Assembly (NCBI GenBank): GCA_947175335.1
Contig: CAMWMF010000018.1
Coordinates: forward strand, 1-39,234
Direction of reading: 5' to 3'
Origin: an uncultured Clostridia bacterium
Lineage (GTDB): Bacteria > Bacillota > Clostridia > Christensenellales > Pumilibacteraceae
DNA length: 39,234 nucleotides
Below, piece after piece: positions 5,611 to 19,741 of the stretch. Numbering within the stretch: position 1 is the stretch's first letter; every line of letters begins with the position of its first letter. Under the pieces are notes generated by a model that did not search any database, was not told where the DNA came from, and worked only from the letters and a program-made list of their open reading frames with translations. Position numbers and translations under genes: made by a program.

Positions 5611-5639
5611 TTTATATAAATATGAGCGCGTAGGCGCAA
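5611..5639 (-). promoter_or_regulatory. Probable pyk promoter
   Basis: Minus strand TTGCGC, 17 bp, TATAAA, about 29 bp upstream of the start. Confidence 0.65.
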
Positions 5640-14870: not shown

Positions 14871-15048
14871 ATTTGCGGCTGGCTCCTAGATTTCTCCACT
14901 ACGCGCATACGCGCTTCGGTCGAAATGATGGGGCTACATGTTCAGCTTTACTCCCATCACCCCGAGCGAAGTCGAGGGGTCTAGGCGTAGCCGCACAATC
15001 TATAAATCTTAACCTTATCTATAATTCTGCATTCTTAATTCTGAATTT
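14871..15048. repeat. Long inverted-repeat element with TCTAGG...GAGCGAAGTCGAG core, copy 1
   Basis: The left arm (GCGGCTGGCTCCTAGATTTC) is roughly the complement of the right arm (CGAGCGAAGTCGAGGGGTCT then AGGCGTAGCCGC). The right side continues as CACAAT...AACCTTAT.TATAATTC and a degenerate AATTCTGAATT block that supplies the stop codon of the ABC-F gene at 15035. A second copy is at 18666-18908. Confidence 0.8.
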
Positions 15049-16501
15049 CCACCACGGCGGTTGCTATTTTGTTTTGGAATGCCTTGTCGTGTTCGACGAA
15101 AATCATGGTCGGGTTGAATGCGGTCAACAACTCCTCTATTTGTATGCGCGAAAAGACGTCTATATAATTTAGCGGCTCATCCCAAACGTATAGGTGCGCG
15201 CTTTCGCACAAGCTTTTTGCAATCAAGGTCTTTTTCTTTTGCCCGCCCGAAAAGTCCGACATATCCTTGTCGAACTGCGTTTTGTCAAACCCCATCTTTT
15301 GCAGAATGCTCTTAAACAAGCTCTCGTCAATCTTGCTGTCTATCGCAAGGTCTTTCAACGTGCCACACAAAAAAGACGCGTCTTGCGGCACGTAAGATAT
15401 TACAAGATTAGACCCTATTTTTATATCGCCGGAGTGGTCTATGTCCTGCCCACACAGCAACTTTAACAGACTGCTTTTGCCGCTGCCGTTTTTGCCCTCT
15501 ATCGCTATTCTGTCCCCGCGCTTTATACTGAACGATACGGGACGCATAACTTCCCTGCCGTCGTACACCGCCGCAACGTTACTGAACGTGGCAAGCGTTT
15601 CGACGCGGCATACGAGCGGCGCAAGCTTTAACTTATGCGTATACTCAACGTTTTTTAATAGCTGCGATTTTTGCTCGATTTCCTTTTGCTGTCGCGCTTC
15701 CACAACCTTTGCGCGCTTCATCATCTTAGCGGATTTGTGCCCTACGTAACCTTTATCATACGCGCCGATTTTTGACGCTTCAACTTTATCCGACCATTCG
15801 GCGGTGCGCCGCGCGGTTTCCTTTAAGCGCCTTATATCCGTTTGCAGCCGCGCCGCCTCTCTGCGCTCGTAATCCTGTTGCCTTTCGAAGTCGGTCATAA
15901 ACGACGAAAAGTTTCCGCCCACAACGTCTATGTTCGACTTGTTGAGCGACAAAATATGATCGACGCACCCGTCCAAAAAATTTCTGTCGTGCGACACCAA
16001 TATGAACCCTTTTTTCCTGCGCAGATATTCCGCCACCAAGCTGCGCGCCGCCGTGTCCAAGTGGTTGGTCGGCTCGTCAATAAGCAAAAACTTCCCCTCG
16101 TTCAAAAACAGCGCGGCAAGTAACACCTTGGTCTGTTCGCCGTTACTCAACGTATTAAAAGGACGATACAGCACTTCGGCACTCACGTCAAGGTAGGACA
16201 GCTCGCGCATAAACTGCCAGTCCTCGGCGGCCGGCGCGACGGCGTGCAAAATATCCTCGGTGTTTACGCTCTTGTCCTCTACCTCATACGGAAAGTAGTC
16301 AAACCCGACGGACGAAATGATTTTGCCGCCGTATTCGTACTTACCCATAAGCAAATTCAAAAACGTTGTTTTACCCCTGCCGTTTCTGCCCACAAACCCA
16401 AGCTTCCAGTCGGTATCTATACTGAAACTGACGCTATCGAAAATAAGGTCGTCGCTCGTCGGGTAACCGAACGTAAGATTTTCCACTTTTATAATAGCCA
16501 T
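15035..16501 (-). CDS. ABC-F ATPase, Lsa-like ribosomal protection protein
   Basis: 488 residues from the ATG at 16501 (GGAGG 7 bases upstream; an in-frame start at 16546 lies in the attenuator). There are two ABC domains and no membrane segments. Domain 1 has W-K-L-G-F-V-G-R-N-G-R-G-K-T-T, the signature LSNGEQTKV and FLLIDEPTNHLD. A charged helical linker (about 190-285) follows. Domain 2 has G-K-N-G-S-G-K-S-S, FSGGQKKKT and LYVWDEPLNYIDVF. Both Walker A lysines and both catalytic glutamates are present. WKLGxxGRNGRGKTT and WDEPLNYxDVF are typical of Lsa/Vga proteins, which clear lincosamides, streptogramin A and pleuromutilins from the ribosome. A drug phenotype is inferred, not shown. The leader carries an attenuator. 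A repeat supplies the stop codon. Confidence 0.9.
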   Translation of the reverse strand: MAIIKVENLTFGYPTSDDLIFDSVSFSIDTDWKLGFVGRNGRGKTTFLNLLMGKYEYGGKIISSVGFDYFPYEVEDKSVNTEDILHAVAPAAEDWQFMRELSYLDVSAEVLYRPFNTLSNGEQTKVLLAALFLNEGKFLLIDEPTNHLDTAARSLVAEYLRRKKGFILVSHDRNFLDGCVDHILSLNKSNIDVVGGNFSSFMTDFERQQDYERREAARLQTDIRRLKETARRTAEWSDKVEASKIGAYDKGYVGHKSAKMMKRAKVVEARQQKEIEQKSQLLKNVEYTHKLKLAPLVCRVETLATFSNVAAVYDGREVMRPVSFSIKRGDRIAIEGKNGSGKSSLLKLLCGQDIDHSGDIKIGSNLVISYVPQDASFLCGTLKDLAIDSKIDESLFKSILQKMGFDKTQFDKDMSDFSGGQKKKTLIAKSLCESAHLYVWDEPLNYIDVFSRIQIEELLTAFNPTMIFVEHDKAFQNKIATAVVEIQN

Positions 16502-16510
16502 AAATTTTCC

Positions 16511-16551
16511 TCCAAAAACGAAAAGAGCTATGAGAAAGTTTCCCATAGCTC
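16511..16551 (-). terminator. Attenuator terminator in front of the ABC-F gene
   Basis: Minus strand GAGCTATG-GGAAACTTTCT-CATAGCTC, then TTTTCGTTTTT, ending 10 bp before the ABC-F start. The loop strand AAACTTTCT (16533-16541) is complementary to AGAAAGTTT in the leader (within 16589-16600), so a competing anti-terminator can form. Confidence 0.85.
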
Positions 16552-16586
16552 AAAAGACATAGTAAATATGTTTGAGAATAAAATGA

Positions 16587-16625
16587 TTAAACTTTCTTGC
16601 AAACCGCGCAAGCCAAAATAAACAT
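16587..16625 (-). CDS. Second leader ORF of the ABC-F gene, 12 codons
   Basis: MFILACAVCKKV then TAA. The last codons contain the anti-terminator strand GCAAGAAAGTTT. No Shine-Dalgarno site is seen ahead of its ATG, so translation is doubtful. Confidence 0.35.
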   Translation of the reverse strand: MFILACAVCKKV

Positions 16626-16654
16626 ATATGTTCGTTTGACTAACGCTATTCAAT

Positions 16655-16675
16655 TTAGCAAGAAGCTTTCTTCAC
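16655..16675 (-). CDS. First leader ORF of the ABC-F gene, 6 codons with GTG start
   Basis: GTG AAG AAA GCT TCT TGC TAA (MKKASC), with GAGG 6 bases upstream. Its codons include CTTCTTGC (16658-16665), which can pair with GCAAGAA(A)G at 16593-16600 and so remove the anti-terminator strand. A ribosome paused here would free that strand. Confidence 0.55.
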   Translation of the reverse strand: MKKASC

Positions 16676-16702
16676 TTTGCACCTCAAAGTTTTGTTGTAA
16701 TC

Positions 16703-16731
16703 AGTTTACCACACCGCGACAAAAATGTCAA
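16703..16731 (-). promoter_or_regulatory. Promoter of the ABC-F gene
   Basis: Minus strand TTGACA, 17 bp, TAAACT. The -35 overlaps the last codons of the P-type ATPase gene. It gives a leader of about 195 nt. Confidence 0.85.
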
Positions 16732-18650
16732 GCGGTGGTTTTGGGTTGTTTAACGTACTTACTGTTGACGCGTATTGCGTTGAGTATGGCAAGCACCGCT
16801 ACGCCAACGTCGCCGAAAACGGCAATCCACATATTGGCTATGCCGAACGCGGAAAGTATGAGTATTGCAAGCTTGACTATAAGCGAAAACCAAATATTTT
16901 CAAGCACTATCGCCATAGTCTTTTTGGCAATGCGTTTGGCAAGCGAAATGCCTTTTAGGTCATCCTTCATAAGAACTATGTCGGAAGCCTCTATCGCCGC
17001 GTCGCTACCCACGCCGCCCATAGCAATGCCTATGTCCGAGCGCATAAGCACGGGCGCGTCGTTTATGCCGTCGCCCACAAAGCACAGCACGTCGTTTTTG
17101 TCTTTGGCGGCCAAAAGATTCTCAACCTCTTCCACCTTGTTTTGCGGAAGCAGCGACGCCTTGTAGCCCGTCAATCCGATTTGTGTTGCCACGCTTTCGG
17201 CAATAGCTTCGTTGTCGCCGGTGAGCATTACCGTTTTGCAGCCCATACCGTTAAGCTCGCCTATTACCTGTTTTGACTCTTCTTTTATCTCGTCGGCAAT
17301 GAGCAGCGACCCGACAAACTTGCCGTTATGCGCCACGTATACAACGGTACCCAGTCCGTCCTCTTTTACGTACTCTATACCGTTTTGCGCCATAAGCTTG
17401 TCGTTGCCGCACAAAATAGTATCGTCGCCGTTTGTCGCTACAATACCCGCACCCGCAACGTTAGTCAGCGTGTAACCGCCGTCAACCTGTCCGCCGTAAG
17501 CGGACACGATCGAACGCGCTATGGGGTGATTGGAATTCTGCTCGGCAATTGCGGCAAGCCGCAAAACGTTGTCCCTGTCGCTTTCGGGCGACACCTTAGT
17601 CACAGCGAAATTGCCCTTGGTAAGCGTGCCCGTCTTGTCGAACACAAACGTATTGGCTTTGTTGAACTTTTCAAGATAGTTGGAGCCCTTTACCAAAATG
17701 CCGTAACGCGACGCCGCGCCGATACCCGCAAAGAAGGACAGCGGGATAGAAATAACGAGCGCGCACGGGCACGACACTACAAGGAAGCTGAGCGCACGGT
17801 ACACCCAAGTCGACCAGTCGGAAGTGACGGCACCGGGGATGATTGCCAGCAGTAGCGCCACACCGACGACTGCGGGCGTATAGTACTTGGCGAACTTGGT
17901 AATAAAGTTTTCCGCCTTGGATTTTTGCGAAGACGCATTTTCCACGAGGTTGAGAATTTTGGACACGGTGCTGTCGTAAAACACCTTTGTCACGCGCACT
18001 TCTATTTGCGAGGTGAGATTTACGCAACCGCTTATAACCTCGCCGCCCTCGGCAATGTCGCGCGGCAAGCTTTCGCCCGTCAGCGCCTTGGTGTCCAGCG
18101 TGGTAGCGCCTTTTACCACAACGCCGTCCAGCGGTATTTTTTCCCCGGGGTTTACCACTATAACGTCGTCAACATTTACCTCGCTCGGGTCGACCGTTTC
18201 CGTGCCGTCCTCGCGCTTAACGTTGGCGTAGTCGGGGCGAATATCCATAAGCGAGGAAATGGACTTGCGCGACTTGCCCGTCGCGTACGACTGAAACCAC
18301 TCGCCCACTTGATAGAACAGCAGCACGGCGCACGCCTCGTCAAAGCCCTCTATTTCCAGCCCGCTCACTCCGCGGTAGATAGCCAAAGCAAACGCACCGA
18401 GAGTCGCCACACACATGAGAAAGTTTTCGTCAAAAACCTGTCCATGCGCAATGTTGCGAACCGCCTTCCACAGCACGTCGTAGCCGATTACTATGTACAC
18501 AGCCAAGTACAACGCGAACGGGAACAGCCAGCCGTATTTGCCGCCGAACACGCTATCCAGCGCAATAACCTTATCGGTAATGAATATCGCAAGAAACGCC
18601 GCTAACGCAACGAGTATTCGTATTAAATTCTTTTTTTGCCGTCGTGTCAT
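16728..18650 (-). CDS. P1B-type heavy-metal ATPase, Zn/Cd-type
   Basis: 640 residues. Order: basic N-terminus, first membrane helices, A domain with L-T-G-E-S-L-P (about 185-195), the metal-binding C-P-C in SCPCALVISIPL (about 290), phosphorylation site DKTGTLTKG (Asp near 337), the HP locus in NSNHPIAR, and hinge GDGINDAP. The CPC motif, the P1B layout and the HMA partner fit export of Zn2+, Cd2+ or Pb2+ (or Co2+). The usual N-terminal HMA domain is missing and is encoded as a separate 72-aa gene upstream. GGAG lies 5 bases before the ATG. A 240-bp repeat block separates it from the HMA gene, but the two probably form one unit with the ArsR-type sensor at 19724. Confidence 0.93.
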   Translation of the reverse strand: MTRRQKKNLIRILVALAAFLAIFITDKVIALDSVFGGKYGWLFPFALYLAVYIVIGYDVLWKAVRNIAHGQVFDENFLMCVATLGAFALAIYRGVSGLEIEGFDEACAVLLFYQVGEWFQSYATGKSRKSISSLMDIRPDYANVKREDGTETVDPSEVNVDDVIVVNPGEKIPLDGVVVKGATTLDTKALTGESLPRDIAEGGEVISGCVNLTSQIEVRVTKVFYDSTVSKILNLVENASSQKSKAENFITKFAKYYTPAVVGVALLLAIIPGAVTSDWSTWVYRALSFLVVSCPCALVISIPLSFFAGIGAASRYGILVKGSNYLEKFNKANTFVFDKTGTLTKGNFAVTKVSPESDRDNVLRLAAIAEQNSNHPIARSIVSAYGGQVDGGYTLTNVAGAGIVATNGDDTILCGNDKLMAQNGIEYVKEDGLGTVVYVAHNGKFVGSLLIADEIKEESKQVIGELNGMGCKTVMLTGDNEAIAESVATQIGLTGYKASLLPQNKVEEVENLLAAKDKNDVLCFVGDGINDAPVLMRSDIGIAMGGVGSDAAIEASDIVLMKDDLKGISLAKRIAKKTMAIVLENIWFSLIVKLAILILSAFGIANMWIAVFGDVGVAVLAILNAIRVNSKYVKQPKTTA

Positions 18651-18665
18651 GATAACTCCAATAGA

Positions 18666-18908
18666 TAATTAGGAATTATGAATTCGGAATGCGGAATTAT
18701 GGGTGGTAATAACGTAACATGTATGCGGCGGTTCGCCTAGACCACCCCAGTCCCCGCTACGGTCGGGGTGATGGGTATGCGAACTGTACTATTAGAAAAG
18801 ATAATCCAATACTCCCATCATTTCGAGCGAAGTCGAGAAATCTAGGCGTAGCCGCACAATATAAAATCTCAACCTTATTTATAATTCCGCATTCCGCATT
18901 CCGAATTT
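18666..18908. repeat. Composite inverted-repeat element, copy 2, between HMA and ATPase genes
   Basis: The ends are inverted AATTCGGAATGCGGAATTAT and ATAATTCCGCATTCCG blocks. The inside holds the same core as at 14871-15048 (CTCCCATCA...CGAGCGAAGTCGAG...TCTAGGCGTAGCCGCACAAT). The right end supplies the stop codon of the HMA gene. It has the architecture of a small non-autonomous element. Confidence 0.8.
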
Positions 18909-19125
18909 AAAGTATTATCCTGCAATCGGGCTCTACCTTTTTGCAAACCTTAACGGCTTCTTTCATAATATCTTCAAACCGAGCGTCATCCGCTTCGATT
19001 GTCAACCTTTGACTCATAAAGCTAATGCTTGCGGCAGTAACGCCGTCAATCTTGGCAATCGCCCGCTCCATCTTAGCGGCACAGTTGGCGCAATCCAAAT
19101 CCTGCAATTTGTAAACCTTTTTCAT
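18907..19125 (-). CDS. Heavy-metal-associated (HMA) metallochaperone-like protein
   Basis: 72 residues with the ferredoxin-like HMA pattern: L-D-C-A-N-C-A-A-K-M-E near the start, then I-D-G-V-T-A-A-S-I-S-F-M-S-Q-R-L-T-I-E-A. The Cys pair (Cys14 and Cys17) should bind one metal ion. The adjacent ATPase lacks its own HMA domain, so this is probably its detached binding domain or metal donor. GGAGGG lies 5 bases before the ATG. Copper chaperones look alike, but the neighbouring CPC ATPase and Zn-type sensor favour Zn/Cd. The stop lies in repeat DNA. Confidence 0.9.
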   Translation of the reverse strand: MKKVYKLQDLDCANCAAKMERAIAKIDGVTAASISFMSQRLTIEADDARFEDIMKEAVKVCKKVEPDCRIIL

Positions 19126-19153
19126 AATAACCCTCCGTAGGTTGTTTTTAATT

Positions 19154-19331
19154 TATTGTTGAACACTTTTATTTTTCGAGGAGTATTTTTGCCCGCTTGC
19201 GGGAGCAAAAATGCGACGACGACAAATCATATATAATACAACGCTGCTTGCAGCGGAACTTGCGTGCTTTGCGCGCAAGTGTAGAGCTTGCTCTACAATA
19301 TAATATGTGATTTATTGAGTAAGTGTTCAAC
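19154..19331. repeat. 178-bp hairpin-rich element with 11-bp terminal inverted repeats
   Basis: The ends are GTTGAACACTT and AAGTGTTCAAC. Inside are a GCCCGCTTGCGGG hairpin, then AATCATATATAAT ... TATAATATGTGATT flanking three short GC hairpins (GCTGC/GCAGC, ACTTGCG/CGCAAGT, TAGAGC/GCTCTA). No ORF is present. The right end abuts the operator-like TTCAACTGTT, so the ends may be regulator sites rather than transposon ends. Confidence 0.65.
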
Positions 19332-19335
19332 TGTT
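19326..19335. promoter_or_regulatory. Candidate metal-sensor operator upstream of the HMA-ATPase genes
   Basis: TTCAACTGTT, identical to 19751-19760 in front of the sensor gene. It lies in AAGTGTTCAACTGTT, next to a TTGAAC-17-CATATT promoter-like pair on the minus strand. Confidence 0.45.
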
Positions 19336-19341
19336 GTCCCT

Positions 19342-19364
19342 TAAAAAACAGGTTTAACCCTGTT
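19342..19364 (-). terminator. Terminator after the ArsR/SmtB gene
   Basis: Minus strand AACAGGGTTAAACCTGTT then TTTT, 13 bp after the stop. Confidence 0.8.
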
Positions 19365-19376
19365 CGTTAAGTTATT

Positions 19377-19724
19377 TTACTTGTCCTCGTTTACGTGCGT
19401 TAAGCCGTATTCCAAAATCTTGGTAACGTGGTCGTCGTCCAGCGAGTATTTGACTTCCTTCCCCTCTTTGGTGCCCTTGACGAGCTTTGCCGCCCTAAGC
19501 ACTCTAAGCTGGTGGGAAACCGCCGATATACTCATACCCAAAACGTCGGCTATCTCGCTCACGTACAGGTCGCGTATTTGCAAGCATTGCAATATCTTGG
19601 CGCGCGTCGAGTCGCCGAACATTTTGAACAAATCGGCAAGGTCGTATATAACGTCGTCGCTCGGCAGCATATTCCTAAGCGCCGTAACCGAATCCGTATT
19701 TATTTTGCCGCCGTTATCAGTCAT
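19377..19724 (-). CDS. ArsR/SmtB-family zinc-type repressor
   Basis: 115 residues from the ATG at 19724, which has GGAGG 5 bases upstream; an earlier in-frame start at 19736 overlaps that site. The winged helix reads F-K-M-F-G-D-S-T-R-A-K-I-L ... S-A-V-S-H-Q-L-R-V-L. The C-terminal helix carries D-D-H-x10-H-x2-E (LDDDHVTKILEYGLTHVNE), which matches the alpha-5 Zn site of CzrA/SmtB (D-x-H-x10-H-x2-H/E). The alpha-3 Cys pair of CadC/ArsR is absent (DLYVSEI). It should release DNA on Zn binding and derepress the efflux genes downstream on the same strand. Confidence 0.92.
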   Translation of the reverse strand: MTDNGGKINTDSVTALRNMLPSDDVIYDLADLFKMFGDSTRAKILQCLQIRDLYVSEIADVLGMSISAVSHQLRVLRAAKLVKGTKEGKEVKYSLDDDHVTKILEYGLTHVNEDK

Positions 19725-19741
19725 TCCGACCTCCAATACTT

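Follow-up and report, generated by a model that had tools for sequence, protein, structure and literature searches.

The window analyzed here, a stretch of 39,234 nucleotides (nt) of contig CAMWMF010000018.1 from an uncultured Clostridia bacterium, carries on its minus strand a gene for an Lsa-like ABC-F ribosome-protection protein of 488 amino acids (15035..16501), assigned with NCBIfam profiles and a structure-sequence match. It is preceded by a leader of about 195 nt, measured from the promoter to the ABC-F start at 16501. This leader is very probably a ribosome-mediated transcription attenuator of the ABC-F gene. A sequence-only reading of the locus had proposed a ribosome-responsive attenuator and had described a promoter, a leader of this length, a six-codon GTG open reading frame (ORF) with GAGG ahead of it, three pairing strands, and a terminator. 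All of these were found in place, and the coordinates given below for the leader and its gene refer to the minus strand.

The promoter (16703..16731), TTGACA-17-TAAACT with a TG ahead of the -10 element, agrees with the consensus at 10 of 12 positions. One such promoter was found, against 0.5 expected from shuffled sequences, and its -35 element overlaps the end of the gene upstream at the stop codon, a gene that looks like one for a metal P-type ATPase. The leader ORF, GTG AAG AAA GCT TCT TGC TAA (16655..16675; MKKASC), has GAGG just 5' of it and is recognized from the sequence and from its homologues. Strand 1, TTCTTGC (16658..16664), lies within codons 4 to 6 of this ORF and ends 18 nt from the first base of the start codon. 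Sequence and covariation mark strand 2, GCAAGAAAGTTT (16589..16600), as a partner of either strand 1 or strand 3. A hairpin between strands 1 and 2 (16606..16646), which shows compensatory changes, prolongs the anti-antiterminator. The intrinsic terminator hairpin and then the U tract TTTTCGTTTT (16525..16551) were likewise identified from sequence and covariation. Strand 3, AAACTTTCT (16533..16541), placed by sequence and folds, comprises the terminator loop and the upper part of the 3' arm and is the antiterminator partner of strand 2.

As had been claimed from the sequence, strand 1 pairs with strand 2, and strand 2 with the terminator strand 3. Helix 1:2 joins TTCTTGC to GCAAGAA over 7 base pairs (bp), and helix 2:3 joins AGAAAGTTT to AAACTTTCT over 9 bp; since strand 2 is common to both, the two helices are mutually exclusive. 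Chained 1:2 and 2:3 matches of equal or better quality appeared in 9 of 5000 dinucleotide shuffles, the regions compared having been chosen after inspection of the sequence. The folding z score of the 177-nt leader was -5.36. Rfam release 15 gave no match at gathering score over the window leader or at the leaders of 10 related loci. A riboswitch or known RNA family was ruled out on this ground, the only matches being chance ones to microRNAs.

The ABC-F product passed the ribosomal protection-like ABC-F model NF000355 (474.2 bits, cut-off 380) and remained below the cut-off of the exception-level Lsa family model NF000167 (709.7 versus 750 bits), which is why it is termed Lsa-like. The homologue at locus L061 passed the latter model with 751.8 bits. 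The best sequence match among solved structures was Lsa(A) (7nhk, E 2.9e-123), and identity was 63% to plasmid Lsa(B) and 58% to plasmid Lsa(E). Homologues at E <= 1e-60 were present in 27 of 61 genomes, comprising the window's own and those of its relatives. Among the best 80 of 338 named homologue records, the closest, with 97% identity, is an uncultured Clostridia metagenome-assembled genome, and further ones belong to Lachnospiraceae, Flavonifractor, and others. A start at 16546 in the ORF list was dropped because it falls inside the terminator; the start at 16501, which is preceded by a Shine-Dalgarno (SD) sequence, is the likely one.

The mechanism that we infer for this leader, from translation of the ORF and stalling by drug to the cellular events of termination and read-through and the range of drugs sensed, is as follows. 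Without drug, a ribosome would translate the short ORF and depart, and strand 1 would pair with strand 2. With helix 1:2 in place, the terminator would form and transcription would end ahead of the ABC-F gene. Arrest at initiation or in early elongation by a drug (lincosamides, pleuromutilins, and streptogramin A are predicted) would hold the ribosome near the start codon, where its downstream edge would cover strand 1 and free strand 2. Once strand 3 has left RNA polymerase, at a point where the 3' arm of the terminator is still incomplete, strands 2 and 3 would pair, and transcription would continue into the ABC-F gene.

Conservation, covariation, and folding

Upstream regions were examined at 100 loci with homologous genes (25 of 27 unnamed and 75 of 80 named ones); L034, L042, L064, L068, and L104 were left out as lacking upstream DNA or a gene start, and L025 and L026 as partial. 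A pattern describing a short ORF with an SD sequence fitted 78 of the 100 regions, five more leaders (L012, L013, L035, L038, and L106) were added by eye, and removal of 15 exact duplicates yielded 68 leaders. The three strands were aligned in 65 of these (all except L086, L096, and L107), which were divided by locus number into type A, the window's group plus its nearest (up to L051, 30 leaders), and type B (the remaining 35). Alignment A1 contained 53 of the 65 leaders, and alignment A2 contained 20 of the 30 type A leaders, with divergent ones omitted. It should be noted that the ORF pattern permits only Cys or Phe endings, followed by at most one codon, and no AGY at codon 5. Peptide counts therefore overstate conservation, and ORFs of two or three codons were missed.

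The ORF pattern occurred in 65 of 87 distinct upstream regions, compared with a mean of 2.2 after dinucleotide shuffling. Combined with an exact downstream complement of at least 7 nt, it occurred in 51 of these regions, compared with 0.3 in shuffles. Most type A ORFs read M-x-x-[F, V, I, L]-S-C, and most of those in type B read M-x-x-F-S-C-[K/R], endings of the kind that the pattern favors. Homologous leaders retain the small ORF together with the three segments, a finding by which the proposed ribosome-responsive attenuator is supported. By the pattern and by eye, 17 of the 100 regions had no leader, and the covariance model R1 described below later recovered one at L091 and a weak, partial one at L088. 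At L091 (1590-1690) the R1 match was strong (83.7 bits) and was situated about 1.3 kb 5' of the ABC-F gene. The DNA in between looks, by eye, like part of a transposase, and an insertion may have separated leader and gene.

The pairing scheme is also supported by covariation, through compensatory changes in the inner hairpin and the terminator and through the agreement of helices 1:2 and 2:3 with pairing across the 65 leaders. In alignment A2, 16 of 27 pairs showed double compensatory changes, a count reached in none of 500 shuffles; sliding the partner columns by 1 to 3 positions left 5 to 8 such pairs. Of the 12 pairs of the inner hairpin, 9 had double changes, as had 7 of the 8 pairs counted in the terminator; helix 1:2, with 99.3% of cells paired, was almost invariant. 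For the 65 leaders, representing 57 distinct triples, the paired fraction was 0.891 for 1:2 and 0.902 for 2:3, and none of 2000 permutations was as high for either helix; permutations and p values here ignore relatedness. Type A alone exceeded all 2000 permutations for both helices, and type B alone exceeded them for 1:2. Changes in strand 1 or strand 3 were often matched in strand 2. At one type B position of strands 2 and 3, T-A was found in 18 of 35 leaders and C-G in 15, with two exceptions (Fisher p 7.5e-8; 3.1e-6 on 29 distinct sequences). Strand 1 tracked this position less strictly (p 0.0017; 0.0084 on distinct sequences).

Folds were computed for 64 of the 65 leaders (L103 contains N), cut at successive points and either free or with the start codon and the ribosome footprint kept single stranded; they represent equilibrium, not kinetics. 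When strand 3 was just exposed, the antiterminator was formed in 57 of 64 blocked leaders and in none of the 64 free ones. An equal-length block placed in the hairpin gave the antiterminator in 4 of 64 leaders, and a block shifted onto the ORF body gave it in 38 of 64. Two bases later, the terminator was present in 26 of 30 free leaders of type A but in 2 of 30 blocked ones, and the corresponding counts for type B were 32 of 34 and 2 of 34. In the window leader, the antiterminator fold also engages part of the 5' arm of the terminator. Full-length equilibrium folds, computed for 46 of the 65 leaders, displayed the switch in 21 of 33 type B leaders and in 1 of 13 window-type leaders. The two exclusive structures expected by the sequence-only reading were thus recovered in part: folds of the growing transcript switch when the start codon is blocked, whereas full-length folds of window-type leaders do not. 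Since the full-length equilibrium of window-type leaders does not favor the antiterminator even with a ribosome, the switch must be kinetic. That the antiterminator forms first is a usual assumption for attenuators.

Distribution of the leader and ribosome position versus peptide

The covariance model R1 was built from the part between the ORF and strand 2 of 53 leaders, the window's included, and contains no ABC-F coding sequence. In the window it matched 16586..16688 (73.4 bits, E 4.4e-14), a score to be read with the window among its training leaders; a plus-strand match (29.1 bits) was set aside as the mirror image of the hairpin. R1 matched 19 of the 61 genomes of the relatives set. In a sample of 391 genomes of the class, partly dependent on training because the window's own genome and G152 also gave training sequences, it had matches in 33. 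An Lsa-like gene was located 79 to 285 nt downstream on the same strand in 28 of these 33 genomes. In one further genome (G425), the leader stands ahead of a different ABC-F gene (26% identity), for which the Msr and CplR models come nearest, at scores below their cut-offs. This points to a transfer of the leader from one ABC-F family to another. The leader ORF at this locus (L135:1-1598, minus strand) reads M-I-I-F-S-C-K. The other four matches were weak (E 8e-4 to 7e-3) and were taken as chance: G231 (L156) and G426 (L157) had no ABC-F gene in the flanks read, and G184 (E 0.007) and G279 (E 0.006) had no Lsa-like match in the genome. G423 had a second, weak match (E 0.007).

ORFs were read for the 27 R1 matches that precede ABC-F genes, out of 29 loci fetched. 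Nineteen had 6 to 7 codons, and 18 of the 19 contained Ser-Cys. In the other eight (L136, L139, L145, L147, L148, L150, L152, and L154, all R1 matches in class genomes), the ORF was just MI, MK, MRN, or MKL, followed by a stop. TTTCTTGC or a close variant was found untranslated 3' of this stop. These leaders also had strand 2 and a terminator containing strand 3; five of the eight came from one genus, and four genera were represented in all. The distance from the end of strand 1 to the first base of the start codon was 17 to 18 nt in the 65 aligned leaders and 18 to 19 nt in the eight short-ORF leaders, with a shift of one base in six of the latter. The ORFs of L035 and L038 run through strand 1 in a different frame and contain no in-frame Cys codon. 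Ala in L018 and Thr in L020 are accompanied by matching changes in strand 2, although Thr in L014 is not, and Phe in place of Cys (L003 and L014) leaves one position unpaired. Because of these short-ORF, frame-shifted, and compensated leaders, the start codon together with a pairing strand at footprint distance emerges as the fixed element. The vmlR leader is reported to give a 30S toeprint 16 nt beyond the A of its start codon (PMC9226507). A ribosome held at the GTG of the window would reach strand 1.

We consider the case evenly balanced that these leaders constitute an undescribed, widely shared Clostridia family of antibiotic-sensing RNAs that reads ribosome position, not peptide, and is portable among Lsa-like genes, Msr/CplR-like ABC-F genes, and plasmid lsa(E). 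As part of such position reading, the Ser-Cys peptide of the ORFs with 6 to 7 codons would be a shadow of the RNA pairing. Several observations weigh against the attenuator or against its reading of position. Neither R1 nor the ORF pattern gave any match upstream of 15 of the 100 examined loci, and within the class the leader was detected in only 28 of 72 genomes having a close Lsa-like gene (E <= 1e-100, with a stricter R1 filter). The filter may have removed the leader in some of the other 44, and a different type of leader, of the kind that lsa(B) seems to have, may be present in others. Helix 2:3 in alignment A2, 94.9% paired and nearly invariant, showed no significant covariation on its own (one double change), and its pairing fraction in the 35 type B leaders was not significant (176 of 2000 permutations). 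Once nearly all of the terminator was exposed, it was formed despite the ribosome block in 28 of 30 leaders of type A and in 22 of 34 of type B. For the switch to work, the antiterminator would have to form first and persist beyond the decision, which equilibrium folds cannot show. Finally, the sequence of the vmlR ORF is reported to affect induction (PMC9226507), at variance with position reading in its pure form.

The evidence from the ORFs also bears on whether the peptide itself is decisive. As in erm and msrD leaders, a nascent M-x-x-[hydrophobic]-S-C could arrest the ribosome together with the drug, the RNA segments being secondary. Ser-Cys is indeed common, and codon 6 is TGC in 63 of the 68 leaders, a pattern-selected set in which the admission of only Cys or Phe endings and of no AGY Ser codon exaggerates peptide conservation. 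Peptide-specific stalling is highly improbable in our view, given that 8 of 27 leaders keep strand 1 untranslated at nearly the usual distance, that two others read it in another frame, and that Ala and one Thr substitution, though not the other, are compensated in strand 2. The choice of Ser codons at position 5 tells the same way, as all 58 TCN codons were TCT or TCC and none was TCA or TCG. Amino acid attenuation, in which a shortage of charged tRNA-Cys would stall the ribosome at the Cys codon and starvation rather than drug would be sensed, is scarcely credible. It would agree with the position of the Cys codon, often directly before the stop, and Cys-codon attenuators have been proposed elsewhere, as for a cysS leader motif (PMC8632094). 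However, each ORF offers a single Cys codon, which is Phe in L003 and L014, is absent in frame from L035 and L038, and is missing from the eight leaders of two to three codons, and the regulated gene encodes a ribosome-protection factor.

Control might instead be mainly translational, with structures that hide the ABC-F start site and with early termination as a minor contribution. The cplR and vmlR leaders are described as combining both kinds of attenuation (PMC10201436, PMC9226507). Less far-fetched than the two preceding explanations, this one is nevertheless unlikely here: a terminator with a U tract, its stem kept by compensatory changes, intervenes between leader and gene, and the SD sequence of the ABC-F gene is positioned 3' of the terminator and outside it, covered in the predicted fold only by a short, weak hairpin.

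Plasmid leaders and genomic surroundings

An Enterococcus plasmid also gave an R1 match, located ahead of lsa(E) (60.3 bits, E 8.5e-12), and there a leader ORF M-Y-N-F-S-C, strand 2, and a terminator containing strand 3 can be seen. The DNA of this leader (261 nt) was present in 107 of 72,556 plasmid records, in 106 of them at an identity of at least 99%; in the 12 records listed of these 107, no feature was annotated under the leader, the gene table being incomplete. On the Enterococcus faecium plasmid pY13 (L161:324-700), about 140 nt more were seen between the attenuator terminator and lsa(E). On visual inspection, a short motif in this stretch recurs in the lsa(B) leader, giving the appearance of two leader types joined together. 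No R1 match was obtained upstream of plasmid lsa(B) (L160) or of a Priestia Lsa gene (L162), and a Paenibacillus relative gave a weak match only (19.1 bits). Visual inspection of L160 and L162 points to a second type of leader, with a longer ORF and a different terminator-like hairpin.

If attenuation operates as proposed, Lsa-type resistance in many Clostridia would be silent until the drug is present, and gene presence alone would misjudge expression. Likewise, lsa(E) on plasmids would be drug inducible, and a known resistance gene would be tied to a Clostridia leader type. The leader family would amount to a natural experiment that asks if the peptides of ABC-F leaders have a role of their own or merely place the ribosome on the RNA.

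Upstream of the leader, minus-strand genes in 16728-18650 and 18907-19736 resemble what we take to be a metal P-type ATPase, a heavy-metal-binding protein, and an ArsR-type regulator. At L002 to L006, the DNA 5' of the leaders resembles the end of the ATPase gene. Two copies of a 57-nt repeat (86% alike), at 14949-15005 and 18810-18866, flank the ABC-F and ATPase genes. Between positions 5639 and 36966, the window contains 12 dispersed copies of an AT-rich repeat (family D2) with TTCCGAATT-like units in both orientations.

Comparison with known ABC-F leaders

Attenuation by leaders is established for ABC-F genes such as lmo0919, vmlR, cplR, msrD, vgaA, and lmrC (PMC8079631, PMC9226507, PMC10201436, PMC12421871, PMC10314930), and its stalled-ribosome logic is experimentally supported for vmlR (PMC9226507) and cplR (PMC10201436). 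Published ORFs of such leaders include MIN, MK[L/Q], MR[I/M], and MAGN (PMC10201436), and further ones are MLV, MRS, and MVGDDDISG. Ser-Cys is contained in none of them as given there. The ORF of the window, MKKASC, differs from the whole ORFs MIN, MK[L/Q], MR[I/M], and MAGN, and none of the 68 leaders matched one of these as a whole ORF; the R1 match L150, with MKL, fits MK[L/Q]. Among the titles and abstract openings listed in searches of open-access papers, a scope that excludes most subscription papers, all supplements, and Dar et al. 2016, and in which the spelling lsa(E) is unsearchable, none dealt with this leader or with regulation of lsaE. The sequence-only reading had held that the six-codon ORF and its pairing scheme may be undescribed. 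The class of mechanism is known from other ABC-F genes, whereas the RNA family, absent from Rfam and from the literature searched, appears to be new.

The lsaA gene of Enterococcus faecalis (PMC10201436) encodes a member of the same protein family (ARE3, Lsa). The consensus of its leader ORF is MAGN, in contrast to mostly M-x-x-[hydrophobic]-S-C-[K/R] here, a distinction drawn from descriptions and not from leader DNA. The cplR leader of Clostridioides difficile (PMC10201436) shares with that of the window a clostridial ABC-F gene, the same drug group, a leader ORF, and premature termination, with induction by lincomycin and retapamulin. It differs in its ORF, MR[I/M], and in a terminator that hides the SD sequence of the gene, which in the window follows the terminator. 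Rli53, ahead of lmo0919 in Listeria monocytogenes (PMC8079631), similarly has an anti-antiterminator and an antiterminator overlapping a small ORF and lincomycin-dependent read-through; its ORF encodes three amino acids, and the gene is of the Vga type. The vmlR leader of Bacillus subtilis (PMC9226507) likewise features a short ORF in the anti-antiterminator, formation of the antiterminator upon stalling of the ribosome by antibiotic, an intrinsic terminator, and an ABC-F gene. Its ORF, M-I-N, has three codons and is located in a bulge, whereas the ORF of the window has six, the last of which form strand 1. Type B leaders often start with M-I-N and continue with F-S-C-K/R, and the ORFs of some relatives comprise just two or three codons, so that window-type and vmlR-type leaders may grade into each other, as judged by comparing descriptions rather than sequences.

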